From Methanomicrobiales archaeon (GTDB taxonomy: Archaea > Halobacteriota > Methanomicrobia > Methanomicrobiales > JACTUA01), in the NCBI GenBank assembly GCA_030019205.1, contig JASEFH010000001.1, positions 62,001 through 126,000 on the forward strand: 64,000 bases of DNA, written 5' to 3'. Below, one piece after another: positions 4,576 to 14,680 of this stretch. The notes under the pieces are model-generated. The model was not told the DNA's origin, did no database searches, and was given only the letters and a program-made list of their open reading frames with translations. Each line of letters starts with the position of its first letter. The first letter of the stretch is position 1. The translations under genes were made by a program, and so were the position numbers.

Positions 4576-6080
4576 CCCTTGGGAGCCTGCCGGGCCGCTA
4601 CCGAATCAAGATAGACAGGGATCGGTGCATGCTCTGTGAGCGCTGCATCGAGAACTGTTCCTACGGGGTGTTCCGGAGAGATGGAGAGCGCATTCATATC
4701 GACTCCAGAACGTGCACTGCCTGCCACCGTTGCATTGCCCTCTGCCCCCGGGATGCCATCGATCTCGTGGAGCGCCCTGTCGACTACCGCAGCCATCCTC
4801 TCTGGACCCGCGAGGCGCGGGAGGCGATTTACAACCAGGCTCGCTCTGGAAGGATCATCCTCTCAGGCATGGGGAACGCTCTCCCGTATCCAGTGATCTT
4901 CGATCGTCTGGTGCTGGATGCCTGCCAGGTGACGAATCCCAGTATCGATCCTCTACGGGAACCCATGGAGCTGCGCACCCATATCGGGAAGAAGCCCGCC
5001 CGGCTCGAGATCCGGACCGAAGACGGGGACGTCGAACTCCTCACGCAACTCTCCCCCGCCCTGCAGCTGGAGACTCCGATTATGATCGCGCATATGAGTT
5101 ACGGAGCGATCAGCCTGAACGCCCAGCTGGCGATGGCGAAAGCGGCAACACGCTCCGGCACGTTCATGGGGACCGGGGAGGGAGGGCTGCACAGGGCGCT
5201 CTATCCCTACCAGGATCGCATGATCGTCCAGGTGGCGAGCGGCCGTTTCGGCGTGGACATCGATTATCTGGAGCGCGGAGCCGCGATGGAGATCAAGATC
5301 GGGCAGGGTGCGAAGCCGGGGATCGGCGGACACCTCCCCGGCGAGAAGGTATGCGCGGATGTCTCCTGCACCCGCATGGTCCCGCTCCACAGCGATGCGA
5401 TCAGCCCGGCCCCGCACCATGACATCTACAGTATCGAGGACCTAAAGCAGCTCGTCAGGAGCCTGAAAGAGGCGACGGAATGGAAAAAACCCGTCTTTGT
5501 CAAGATCGCAGCAGTTCATAACGCAGCCGCCATAGCAGCGGGCATCGCGCGTTCTGCCGCCGATGCAGTGGTGATCGACGGTTTCCGTGGCGGGACAGGG
5601 GCAGCGCCGCGGGTCTTTCGCGATCATGTCGGCATCCCGATCGAGGCGGCGATCGCCAGCGTCGACCAGAAACTGCGGGATCAGGGTATCCGCAACGAAG
5701 TCTCTCTGATTGCGAGCGGCGGCATACGGGAGAGCGCGGATGTCGTAAAGGTGATCGCGCTCGGGGCGGATGCGGTGTACATCGGAACGGCGGCGCTCGT
5801 CGCCATGGGCTGCCGGGTCTGCGGCAACTGCTACCGCGGGCTCTGCCCCTGGGGGATTGCCACCCAGCGGGAGGATCTGGTGCGGCGGCTGGACCCGGAG
5901 GAGCAGTCCGTCCATGTGGAGAACCTGATCCATGCATGGACCTTGGAGATCTCCGAACTGATGGGTGCAGCCGGTATCAACAGCATCGAGAGCCTGCGGG
6001 GCAATCGGGACCGGCTCAGAGGATATCTCCTGGATGAAGGGATCCTGAAAGTGCTGGACGTCAAACCGGTAGGGGCATAG
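4572..6080 (+). CDS. gltB: Glutamate synthase module 2: ferredoxin domain plus FMN synthase domain
   Basis: Carries out the reductive transfer of ammonia to 2-oxoglutarate on FMN. The GTG at 4572 overlaps the preceding stop codon and follows a GGGAGG ribosome site, giving 502 residues. Residues 12-70 hold two 4Fe-4S motifs, CMLCERCIENC and CTACHRCIALC. The FMN barrel follows with MSYGAISLNAQLAMAKA, GEGGLHR, GQGAKPGIGGHLPGEKV, GFRGGTGAAPRVFRDH and ASGGIRESADVVKVIALGAD. The cysteines of the 3Fe-4S site appear in CRVCGNCYRGLCPWG. The N-terminal ferredoxin is characteristic of the archaeal-type enzyme and gives an electron entry point for the FrhB-like protein two genes downstream. Confidence 0.95.
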   Translation: MTLGSLPGRYRIKIDRDRCMLCERCIENCSYGVFRRDGERIHIDSRTCTACHRCIALCPRDAIDLVERPVDYRSHPLWTREAREAIYNQARSGRIILSGMGNALPYPVIFDRLVLDACQVTNPSIDPLREPMELRTHIGKKPARLEIRTEDGDVELLTQLSPALQLETPIMIAHMSYGAISLNAQLAMAKAATRSGTFMGTGEGGLHRALYPYQDRMIVQVASGRFGVDIDYLERGAAMEIKIGQGAKPGIGGHLPGEKVCADVSCTRMVPLHSDAISPAPHHDIYSIEDLKQLVRSLKEATEWKKPVFVKIAAVHNAAAIAAGIARSAADAVVIDGFRGGTGAAPRVFRDHVGIPIEAAIASVDQKLRDQGIRNEVSLIASGGIRESADVVKVIALGADAVYIGTAALVAMGCRVCGNCYRGLCPWGIATQREDLVRRLDPEEQSVHVENLIHAWTLEISELMGAAGINSIESLRGNRDRLRGYLLDEGILKVLDVKPVGA

Positions 6081-11070: not shown

Positions 11071-11088
11071 GGAGAGGTGTCGAAGGTT

Positions 11089-11424
11089 ATGGGCGAGAAG
11101 ACGAAAGAGGCGAAGGGCACGAACGCTATGCTGCACCACGCGATTCCCGTCTCCACATCCTCTGCGCCGCAGTTGACAGTATATTCTTTAGAGTTCTGCC
11201 CCAACTGCGAGACGTTGAAGGACTACCTGAAGAGCAGGGGCATACCCTTCATCGAGAAGGACATGTCCAGCCGGGAACCCCTCGCAGAGCTCCGTCTCCA
11301 CGGGGTATTCGCGCGTGAGGCGCCGGTCCTTCGCCGGGGGGAGAGGTTCCTCACCTCCGGAGAACTCTTCAGTTCGGGTCGGGTCAGGGAGGAGCGGATA
11401 CAAGAGCTGGTATCAGGTGAGTAA
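11089..11424 (+). CDS. Glutaredoxin-like protein, likely reductant of NrdD
   Basis: Thioredoxin-fold redox protein of about 111 residues. The core begins LTVYSLEFCPNCETLKDYL, with a CPNC active site in the usual position after the first strand, followed by the GIPFIEKDMS helix-strand and the EAPVL cis-proline region. The ATG at 11089 has GGAGAGG about 11 bases upstream; a GTG at 11077 is an alternative. It ends two bases before nrdD, so it probably supplies electrons to that reductase, as NrdH-like redoxins do for other classes. An N-terminal extension of about 30 residues precedes the fold and has no recognised function. Confidence 0.82.
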   Translation: MGEKTKEAKGTNAMLHHAIPVSTSSAPQLTVYSLEFCPNCETLKDYLKSRGIPFIEKDMSSREPLAELRLHGVFAREAPVLRRGERFLTSGELFSSGRVREERIQELVSGE

Positions 11425-11426
11425 GG

Positions 11427-13643
11427 GTGGCACGGCAGACAAAGCAGTACGCGCCGCTTCCGCAGCCAATGTCCACCCGGCAGACCACGCTCGATGGAGA
11501 TTTTGCCCCGCCTCTTCCCAAAGTGCGGACCTCCGACGGGCACATCCTGGAATGGGACCGGGAGAAGATCGTTCAGCAACTTCTCGAGGAGACCAAACTC
11601 GTGGAGATCTTCTACGGGCATACGGCGGCAAGCGAGGAGGTGGCGCATGAGATCGCGAGGAGGGTGGAGCAGCAGATCCTGAGGATGGGCCTCAAGTCGC
11701 TGAGCGGGGCGCTCATCCGTGAGATCGTGAACACGACCCTTCTTGAAGCCGGGTATCCGCAGTACAGGAATGTATCCACGCGGGTGGGCACCCCGGTCTA
11801 CGATGCCCACCTCATCGATGTGGGCAGGGGGTTCGAGGCCAAAGACAACGCCAACCTCCAGGAGAACGCCGAGACGTCCCACAAGAAGAAAGCGGACAAG
11901 ATCAGCAAAGAGCAGTACCTCCTGCAGCTCCCCCCCGATCTTGCCGACCACCATCTCGCCGGAAACCTGCACATCCACGATCTCGAGTATTTCGGCACCC
12001 GCCCCTTCTGCCAAGACTGGGATCTCCGCTACTTCTTCTATTACGGTCTGATGCCGGATGGGAACGGCACAAAAGCCTCGGTCGCCGGACCGGCCAAACG
12101 GGCGGAGGTTGCAGTACTCCATGCGGTAAAAGCGCTCGGAAGCGCTCAGACCAATTTCGCCGGCGGGCAGGGCTATTATAACTTCTTGACCTTCCTCGCA
12201 CCGTACTTCGAGGGCATGGCATACGACGAGATACGGCAGTTAATGCAGATGTTCGTATACGAGATGACCCAGATGATGGTCGCCCGCGGCGGGCAGCTCG
12301 TATTCTCCTCGGTTCAGCTGACCCCCGGCGTGCCCAGGCTCTGGAGAGACCGCCCCTGCGTATACAAAGGGAAGGTCTGGAACGGCACTTCGGCGCCCCG
12401 AAGAACCTACGGGGAGTTCGAGCGCGAGGTCCGTCTCCTCTTCAAGGCGTTGATGGAGGTGATGCTGGAGGGGGATTACTGGGGAAAGCCCTTCAGTTTC
12501 CCGAAACCCGAGATCAGCATCGAGCCGGACTTCACTCGCGAGGACGAGGAGTTCAACCGTGCCCATCCGGATCTCCCCACGTACCGCGATCTCTATCTCA
12601 TGACGTTCGAACTCGCATCCAAGTTCGGCACACCCTACTATGACAATCAGATTCCCGCGTATCGCGGCGCCGGCCAGGGAATATCGTGCTATCAGTGCTG
12701 CGCGTATCAGTTCTCGTCCCTCGCAAACGAGGATGACGAGTTCATCGAGAAGCTGGAGTTCCTGGAGGGAAAGCACTTCTCCATGGGCTCCTGGCAGGTG
12801 GTCTCCATCAACTGCCCACGGGCGGCGTACAAAGCCGGGGGCGACGATGAGCGCCTGTTCGCAGAACTCCGTTCGCTGATGGACATCGCCGTCGAGGTGT
12901 TCAAGATCAAGCGGCGGTGGCTCGCGCTCATCGCCGCCAAGGGGCGAATGCCCTTTGCCATGCAGCGCCCAAAGGATCCCAACACGGGTGAACGGGGAGC
13001 GATTGCCGTCGATCTTGAGGGGCTCGTCTATACCATCGGGGTGGTGGGCGTGAACGAGATGGTTCAACACCATCTGGGAGAGCAGCTGCACGAATCCAGG
13101 GCGGCGTTCTCTCTCGCGGTTCGGGCGATGACCGAGATGGAACTGTACGCCCGGGAGCTCTCAAAGCGGCACGGCATGGAGATCGCGCTCGCGCGCACAC
13201 CGGCGGAGACGACCGGTCAGCGGTTCGCCGTCGCCGACCTTCTTGACAAGACCTATCGGGAGCATGCCGTCCGCGTGATCAAGGGGGACATCGAGACCGC
13301 GTTGAAGAGGCTCGGCACCACCCGGGATCTTCCCATCTACTACACAAACGGCACGCACGTAGCGCCGAATGCCCCGATCCCGCTGACGAAACGGATCGAG
13401 ATCGAGCACGTATTCTTCCCCATCATCGACGGCGGCAATATCTTCCACATCTGGCTCGGCGAGGCGCGGCCGGACCCGCGCGGATTGATGGACATGGCGA
13501 TGAACCTCTGCCGCAACACACAGATCGGCTACTTTGCGTTCACGCGGGATCTCACCGTCTGTTTGAAGCGGTTTCACGAGCGCAGGTCTGAGAAGGGGGT
13601 CGATGCGACCTGGCGCACTGTGGACAGGAGGATTCGGGTTTGA
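11427..13643 (+). CDS. nrdD: Anaerobic (class III) ribonucleoside-triphosphate reductase, C terminus missing
   Basis: Makes deoxyribonucleotides under anoxic conditions using a glycyl radical. The GTG start at 11427 follows the redoxin stop by two bases. Residues 30-130 form an ATP-cone regulatory domain (LEWDREKIVQQLLEETKLVE), then the barrel follows with LHIHDLEYFGTRPFC, GGQLVFSSVQLTPGVP, the cysteine-rich GISCYQCCAYQFSS and YYTNGTHV. The reading frame stops soon after IGYFAFTRDLTVCLKR. Family members normally continue for about 60 more residues with a four-cysteine zinc site and the glycyl-radical loop, neither of which is present. Reading one base off after CLK gives SGFTSAGLRRG, which looks like eroded zinc-site sequence. 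As written the product should not form a radical unless the missing part is supplied elsewhere. No nrdG activase gene is adjacent. Confidence 0.88.
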   Translation: MARQTKQYAPLPQPMSTRQTTLDGDFAPPLPKVRTSDGHILEWDREKIVQQLLEETKLVEIFYGHTAASEEVAHEIARRVEQQILRMGLKSLSGALIREIVNTTLLEAGYPQYRNVSTRVGTPVYDAHLIDVGRGFEAKDNANLQENAETSHKKKADKISKEQYLLQLPPDLADHHLAGNLHIHDLEYFGTRPFCQDWDLRYFFYYGLMPDGNGTKASVAGPAKRAEVAVLHAVKALGSAQTNFAGGQGYYNFLTFLAPYFEGMAYDEIRQLMQMFVYEMTQMMVARGGQLVFSSVQLTPGVPRLWRDRPCVYKGKVWNGTSAPRRTYGEFEREVRLLFKALMEVMLEGDYWGKPFSFPKPEISIEPDFTREDEEFNRAHPDLPTYRDLYLMTFELASKFGTPYYDNQIPAYRGAGQGISCYQCCAYQFSSLANEDDEFIEKLEFLEGKHFSMGSWQVVSINCPRAAYKAGGDDERLFAELRSLMDIAVEVFKIKRRWLALIAAKGRMPFAMQRPKDPNTGERGAIAVDLEGLVYTIGVVGVNEMVQHHLGEQLHESRAAFSLAVRAMTEMELYARELSKRHGMEIALARTPAETTGQRFAVADLLDKTYREHAVRVIKGDIETALKRLGTTRDLPIYYTNGTHVAPNAPIPLTKRIEIEHVFFPIIDGGNIFHIWLGEARPDPRGLMDMAMNLCRNTQIGYFAFTRDLTVCLKRFHERRSEKGVDATWRTVDRRIRV

Positions 13644-14680
13644 CCCTCCTGGCAGTCGACGTGGGGAGAGGTACCCAGGACATTCTCGTACACGAGCCCG
13701 AAAGACCGCTTGAGAGCTCCTGCCAGCTGGTGCTGCCCTCGCCGACGGTTATCGTGGCAACGCGGATTCAGGCGGCGACGGCGAGGAGAGAGGACATCTT
13801 CCTCCGTGGGCACTGTATGGGCGGTGGTTCCAACGTAGCGGCGATCGCACGGCACCTGCGTGCGGGGCTGAAGGTGTATGCCACGGAGGCGGCGGCGAGG
13901 ACCATCCACGACAACCCCGCGAGGGTTCGGGAGATGGGCATCCAGGTGGTGGATCACCCTCCCGATTCCGCCGCCGTCATCCACATGACGGATTACATGG
14001 AGCCAGAACTGCGGGCGACGTTCGAAGCGTTCGGGATGCGATATCCGGAGCACCTTGCGTTTGCCGTCCAGGATCACGGGTACAGCCCGGATCGCAGCAA
14101 CCGCATCTTCCGATTCGAGATGTTTCTGCGATCTCTGGAAGCGGGAGACTGGAACCTGTTCTCTCTCGTCCACGATCCCCCCCTGCCGGAGATGACGCGG
14201 ATGCAGTCGGTGCGGGAACAGGCGGCCGGCGCCCTGGTGATCGATACCGGCCCGGCCGCCCTGATCGGCGCCCTGTCCGATCCCGTTATCGGGGACCGTG
14301 CAAACGGGGGTCTGACTCTCGTGAATGCTGGCAACGGCCATACACTCTGTTTCACCCTGAAGGGGGAGGAGGTGCACGGGCTCTTCGAGCACCATACGGC
14401 CGCTCTGGACCGTTCCAGCCTGATCCGGTTCATCCGAAAACTGCAGGAGGGCTCGCTGGGGAACGAGGAGATCTTCGGCGAAGGCGGGCATGGCGTGGCG
14501 ATAAGAAAGCCGCTCGAATCCGATTTCATCGCGGTTACCGGCCCGAACCGGAAGCGGCTGCTGCCCGATGCATACCAGGCGGCTCCGCACGGCAACATGA
14601 TGCTCACCGGCTGCTTTGGCCTCCTTTCGGCATGGGAACGGGTGCGAGGACCCCTCGACGGATCGCAGGCGGCACCATGA
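13640..14680 (+). CDS. DUF1786 family protein
   Basis: Uncharacterised archaeal family, 346 residues. The start is a TTG at 13640 that overlaps the nrdD stop; GGAGG seven bases upstream makes this start convincing. The N terminus, LLAVDVGRGTQDILV, resembles the phosphate-binding loop of sugar-kinase/actin-type ATPases, and a second glycine-rich segment GALVIDTGPAALIGA and the motif NAGNGHTLCF occur in the second half. It has sometimes been annotated as related to pyruvate formate-lyase activation, which would suit a place next to a glycyl-radical enzyme, but no radical-SAM cysteine motif is present. Function unknown. Confidence 0.8.
   Translation: MTLLAVDVGRGTQDILVHEPERPLESSCQLVLPSPTVIVATRIQAATARREDIFLRGHCMGGGSNVAAIARHLRAGLKVYATEAAARTIHDNPARVREMGIQVVDHPPDSAAVIHMTDYMEPELRATFEAFGMRYPEHLAFAVQDHGYSPDRSNRIFRFEMFLRSLEAGDWNLFSLVHDPPLPEMTRMQSVREQAAGALVIDTGPAALIGALSDPVIGDRANGGLTLVNAGNGHTLCFTLKGEEVHGLFEHHTAALDRSSLIRFIRKLQEGSLGNEEIFGEGGHGVAIRKPLESDFIAVTGPNRKRLLPDAYQAAPHGNMMLTGCFGLLSAWERVRGPLDGSQAAP

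Follow-up and report, generated by a model that had tools for sequence, protein, structure and literature searches.

The nrdD gene of the window (the whole stretch of 64,000 nucleotides analysed here) very probably encodes the large subunit of a class III ribonucleotide reductase that is permanently split into two obligate chains, with the glycyl radical located on the small subunit. The sequences display a complementary split at a domain boundary, conserved motifs, an order-wide co-occurrence of the two parts, purifying selection, and an activase. The features concerned are collected in Table 1.

Table 1. Features bearing on the split reductase; positions without a contig or locus label are those of the window.
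Feature	Location	Strand	Description and matches
Glutaredoxin-like protein	11077..11424	+	PF00462; directly upstream of nrdD
nrdD, putative large subunit	11427..13643	+	738 aa; ATP-cone and 10-stranded barrel; PF13597, PF03477, TIGR02487
NrdD C-terminal end	13560..13643	+	Cys712 of TRDLTVC and 26-residue tail
AGGAGG	13626-13631		ribosome site of the next gene
nrdD stop codon	13641-13643		overlaps the next start (TTGA)
DUF1786 protein	13640..14680	+	PF08735; TTG start at 13640
Small protein, putative radical subunit	G000:C2:114586-114945; locus L002 1306-1668		120 aa; PF13597 506-562
PF13597 match in the small protein	G000:C2:114781-114936		profile positions 506-562
NrdG2 radical-SAM activase	G000:C10:28148-28663		TIGR02495, 152 bits
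Compact full-length NrdD of another type	G119:C1:590703-592373		569 aa
Viral stand-alone radical domain, L093	2377-2730		IMGVR_UViG_3300048839_001180
Viral stand-alone radical domain, L094	4713-5186		IMGVR_UViG_3300029775_000005
Very small phage-type protein, L095	155-376		61-69 aa
Very small phage-type protein, L096	11-208		61-69 aa
Very small phage-type protein, L097	~5001-5078

The window NrdD matched positions 1–516 of the 562 in PF13597 (NRDD; 453.6 bits, far above the cut-off) and positions 1–533 of the 581 in TIGR02487 (NrdD; 485.5 bits vs a cut-off of 326), and the same ORF also matched the ATP-cone profile PF03477. The barrel match at curated cut-offs, together with the active-site cysteines and the presence of an NrdG activase, places the predicted protein within the class III reductase family. 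The cysteines 195, 421, 424, 425, and 463, whose roles in the finger loop and the strand were assigned from known structures, were invariant in 33 genomes. The chain ends at the boundary between the barrel and the glycyl-radical domain: the C-terminal zinc site and the radical glycine, which in relatives outside the order occupy the position of the TRDLTVC tail, were not in this chain, whose match stops at PF13597 position 516, and neither a zinc site nor an RVTGY motif followed TRDLTVC in the window ORF. The original prediction that NrdD ends before those two elements was thereby borne out, with 26 residues separating the TRDLTVC Cys from the stop; and it was equally right in placing the ribosome site and start of the next gene in the same bases, which overlap recurs in a similar form, with the same downstream start, in the family relatives L005 and L007.

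That next gene encodes a DUF1786 protein, so that a radical domain encoded downstream and reached by frameshift or read-through was ruled out. Pfam annotates DUF1786 as a putative pyruvate formate-lyase (PFL) activating enzyme, in a genome that has no PFL-type glycyl radical domain. Upstream of nrdD, the glutaredoxin-like protein is the likely electron donor for the reductase; L081 and L083, two relatives with full-length NrdD, have the order redoxin-nrdD as well.

Considered alone, the window ORF, with an essential part missing and a shifted frame that looks vaguely like a zinc site, might pass for a pseudogene, for the product of a sequence error, or for a gene whose C-terminus was recently lost in this organism; the original prediction had indeed offered a broken gene or faulty sequence among its explanations. 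We give this reading practically no credence, in view of what was found in an order-wide sample of 232 Methanomicrobiales genomes. A PF13597 match was present in 203 of them and, among the matches listed, the large chain ended at about positions 500–516 of the profile, the exceptions being that of G107, which ran to 524, fragmentary ones at the edge of a contig, and, in G119, an additional full-length NrdD of a different type. The same end point thus recurs across the genera of the order in chains with a mean identity of 80% and with pairwise dN/dS values of 0.01–0.13 (0.085–0.123 for the window gene against its family relatives), which refutes both the broken gene and the sequence errors. Furthermore, the tails after TRDLTV, of some 25–35 residues, can be aligned between families, as in CLKRFHERRSEKGVDATWRTVDRRIRV vs SLKQFKEYRSEKNPESCLSVADRRVEV; most of the order has Ser or Ala in place of the Cys of TRDLTVC. 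None of the homologous genes compared had a remnant of a radical domain in a shifted frame, which result, together with the homology of the frame-0 tail, led us to reject a frameshift remnant. As to the shifted-frame stretch SGFTSAGLRRG, described beforehand as looking like eroded zinc-site sequence, a similar stretch was seen in none of the 11 other homologous genes compared; it is no eroded zinc site, and the resemblance is due to chance.

The missing part is apparently encoded elsewhere in the genome. A whole-genome search with PF13597 gave two matches only, namely the window nrdD over profile positions 1–516 and a small protein on another contig over positions 506–562; no second full-length nrdD, for which a search had been suggested, was found in this way. 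The small gene lies between pyrF (orotidine 5'-phosphate decarboxylase) and cbiZ, and the two reductase genes are unlinked in this genome. The 120-residue protein, of sequence MDWTPEQ...CPLCGAAVCPSCGSHDVVQISRVTGYMQDVSGWNAGKQQELKDRVRYTVA, carries CPLCGAAVCPSCG and SRVTGY. It differs from the C-termini of full-length archaeal NrdDs in that its zinc motif, CxxCx4CxxC, is compact and in that an extra zinc-ribbon-like part, containing CxxC...CxxC, has been added at the N-terminus. Its cysteines, its RVTGY, and its GWN..K..EL.DR are near-invariant; and besides PF13597 it gave a weak zinc-ribbon match, below the cut-off. This stand-alone zinc-site and glycyl-radical protein, conserved as it is across the order, supports the third explanation originally put forward, namely that another protein supplies what NrdD lacks. 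The suggestion that such a separate domain might be YfiD-like held with respect to its separate encoding, but failed with respect to its kind: the protein matches the NrdD C-terminus and not the glycyl radical domain PF01228, of which no match was found in the genome, nor was a PFL-type glycyl radical enzyme.

When the two chains were aligned to the structure 8p23 of the P. copri NrdD, the large one reached as far as residue 690 or so, and residues 697–738 were covered by the small one, in a chain numbering that appears to run four ahead of that of the publication. In that paper, the core is given as residues 123–671, the glycyl radical domain as 676–739, and the radical glycine as Gly711 (PMC11226230); from these limits and the alignments, the split falls at the domain boundary. 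The radical glycine of P. copri aligns with Gly95 of the small protein. Modelled on its own by AlphaFold, the small protein had a disordered radical loop, and a fold search with that model gave no significant match.

The two parts go together across the order. NrdD was present in 123 of the 135 genomes with a completeness of at least 90%, the 12 without it all belonging to one genus (g8); and of those 123 the small protein was found in all but two (G017 and G187). With the threshold set at 80% completeness, a full-length small protein, 60–83% identical, was present in 167 of 185 genomes, the remaining 18 comprising 14 from one genus without NrdD (weak matches in five of these were not borne out by a profile search) and four incomplete assemblies. 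The NrdD-bearing genomes in which the small protein went undetected were four in all (G017, G083, G161, and G187; 84–93% complete). The pairwise dN/dS of the small gene was 0–0.16, which values, with those of the large one, indicate that both are under purifying selection. Across 33 genomes, the distances of the large proteins and those of the small ones gave a correlation of 0.85, a figure that shared ancestry alone could produce. In many relatives, the NrdD loci (of families f3 and f4) and class II loci have open frames of about 1100–2000 residues with interrupted matches, the large NrdD chains of this kind in the order measuring 1200–2000 residues; the interruptions are probably inteins. 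G119 possesses, in addition to the split enzyme, the compact full-length NrdD of Table 1, just upstream of which lies a weak radical-SAM match.

An activase is likewise retained, NrdG2 being present in all ten of the split genomes tested. Conversely, in genus g8, devoid of both NrdD and the small protein, NrdG2 was also missing from the five genomes tested of five; the joint loss of the three as a single event would support their forming one enzyme, though it is suggestive only. The truncated NrdD could, nevertheless, have been repurposed, for instance for nucleotide sensing through its ATP-cone, with the reductase function lost and the small protein serving something else, and the class II reductase that this genome and most others of the order also possess would leave room for such a change. 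An independent survey gives, in its table as read here, a class II enzyme in three of four Methanomicrobiales genomes (PMC2667541). We consider repurposing very improbable, however, given the invariance of the active-site cysteines, the retention of the activase, and the existence of 19 genomes, out of the 112 that are at least 94% complete, in which neither a class I or dimeric class II reductase (PF02867) nor a monomeric class II one (TIGR02505) was found. Those 19, including the single-contig genomes G189, G197, and G201, have both NrdD parts and therefore seem to possess no recognised reductase besides the split one; a reductase of unknown type may alternatively serve them. The call to look for another class of reductase is answered by a class II enzyme in this genome, absent from 19 relatives.

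A further possibility is that the small protein is not a permanent subunit at all, but a spare part of the YfiD type that repairs an NrdD cleaved by oxygen. Stand-alone homologues do occur together with full-length NrdD in some genomes of the families f8 and f31, which belong to the same phylum, f8 being the one that we infer to be Methanosarcinaceae-like; and spare parts have been predicted for other glycyl radical enzymes (PMC8683613). In Methanomicrobiales, however, the large chain itself lacks a radical domain that might be repaired, so that the small protein must act there all the time, and we hold the spare-part reading to be improbable for this order. For the Methanosarcinaceae-like copies it may well be correct: there, the homologues of about 119 residues beside full-length NrdD (L073, L074, and L076–L080 in f8, seen directly in G416 and G366) are candidate spare parts for a class III reductase.

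As to how the obligate two-chain enzyme might have arisen, in a tree of the shared NrdD part 19 split sequences formed one clade (100/100) with the full-length L086 as its sister; the simplest account of this topology is a single loss of the domain, on the order's stem. All the stand-alone forms compared have in common the compact zinc motif and an H-x-V-x-Q before SR(V/I)TGY, which shared motifs favour a pre-existing stand-alone family over simple fission. A tree that combined the small protein and full-length C-termini, on 121 columns only, did not separate fission from capture, and the nesting of the full-length rows in it was taken as an artefact. Stand-alone copies were also seen on viral and mobile DNA. 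The radical domains of L093 and L094, 56–62% identical, lie on IMG/VR contigs with tail or terminase genes; no NrdD large chain was found on these two contigs, which may be fragments, but only the small protein. G218 has three further copies (L242, L243, and L244), of which L243, the one read most fully, has as neighbours a YhcG/DUF1016 nuclease gene and a 1036-residue protein devoid of named domains, and the G434 copy (L075) adjoins a Prim-Pol primase. The phage-type contigs L095–L097 encode very small proteins with a radical-loop-like RVVGY/RIVGY...WNAGKQQEF and without the full zinc site. We would tentatively entertain, as possible though doubtful, a scenario in which a viral or mobile family of stand-alone subunits served as a spare part in some methanogens and became obligate in Methanomicrobiales after the host enzyme had lost its radical domain, in which event ATP-cone-controlled docking would act as a switch on DNA precursors and viruses could supply a subunit of their own.

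With respect to the working of the proposed two-chain reductase, NrdG2 would abstract hydrogen from Gly95 of the small protein, and so generate the glycyl radical on that chain. The open end of the barrel would receive the small protein, in a permanent or a reversible association, and the RVTGY loop of the latter would reach into the active site, close to cysteines 421, 424, and 425 of the finger loop. From there the radical would move on to a cysteine and to the substrate; re-reduction of the enzyme would fall to a redoxin, for which the glutaredoxin-like protein encoded upstream is an example. The physical association of the chains, the radical on Gly95, and the catalysis itself are what we infer, as is a control of docking by the ATP-cone. 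In the P. copri NrdD, the radical domain, there part of the chain, becomes mobile when dATP is at the ATP-cone (PMC11226230); a separate radical domain could be controlled in a like manner, through its docking.

To our knowledge, glycyl radical enzymes have been described as chains carrying their own radical, and the loss of the domain has been regarded as damage. If the present reading is true, a natural two-part class III reductase exists throughout an order, is apparently obligate, and is the only recognised reductase of some methanogens. Such a system would permit asking how an activase recognises the radical subunit and how docking occurs, in what way the radical domain is governed by ATP and dATP, and whether spare parts can become subunits; the viral and mobile copies, for their part, suggest a viral route for influencing the supply of DNA precursors in the host. 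For annotators there is also a warning, in that these nrdD genes appear truncated and are nonetheless complete. Our search of the open-licence literature found no published account of a split NrdD, and a prior description elsewhere is possible.

Compared with the canonical NrdDs (P. copri 8p23, T. maritima 4U3E, and that of phage T4), the proposed enzyme has the same barrel, finger-loop cysteines, and radical-SAM activase, a zinc ribbon and an RVTGY-type radical loop, and, as in P. copri, an ATP-cone; the canonical enzymes, however, have the radical domain as the C-terminal part of a single chain, whereas here it is a separate gene product, which moreover has the added N-terminal zinc-ribbon-like part and the compact CxxCx4CxxC. 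A free-standing glycyl radical domain that completes an enzyme in trans is likewise known in YfiD/GrcA and in Y06I of phage T4, these two being, according to PMC8683613, the only validated spare parts, both for PFL. YfiD belongs to PF01228 and targets PFL, whereas the small protein corresponds to the PF13597 C-terminus and would target the reductase; and YfiD repairs a damaged enzyme that normally has its own domain, whereas the Methanomicrobiales large chain has none, the coexistence with an intact enzyme that characterises YfiD being encountered only in the Methanosarcinaceae-like genomes. The NrdJa/NrdJb of Pseudomonas aeruginosa is likewise a two-chain reductase with a separate C-terminal part, described in PMC4520616 as a unique split ribonucleotide reductase in a free-living organism; but that enzyme is of class II, uses B12, and has a small chain that performs dithiol exchange, whereas the small chain here would carry the catalytic radical, and the NrdD split spans an archaeal order. 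The split NrdD thus resembles a combination of the YfiD rescue with the split class II enzyme.
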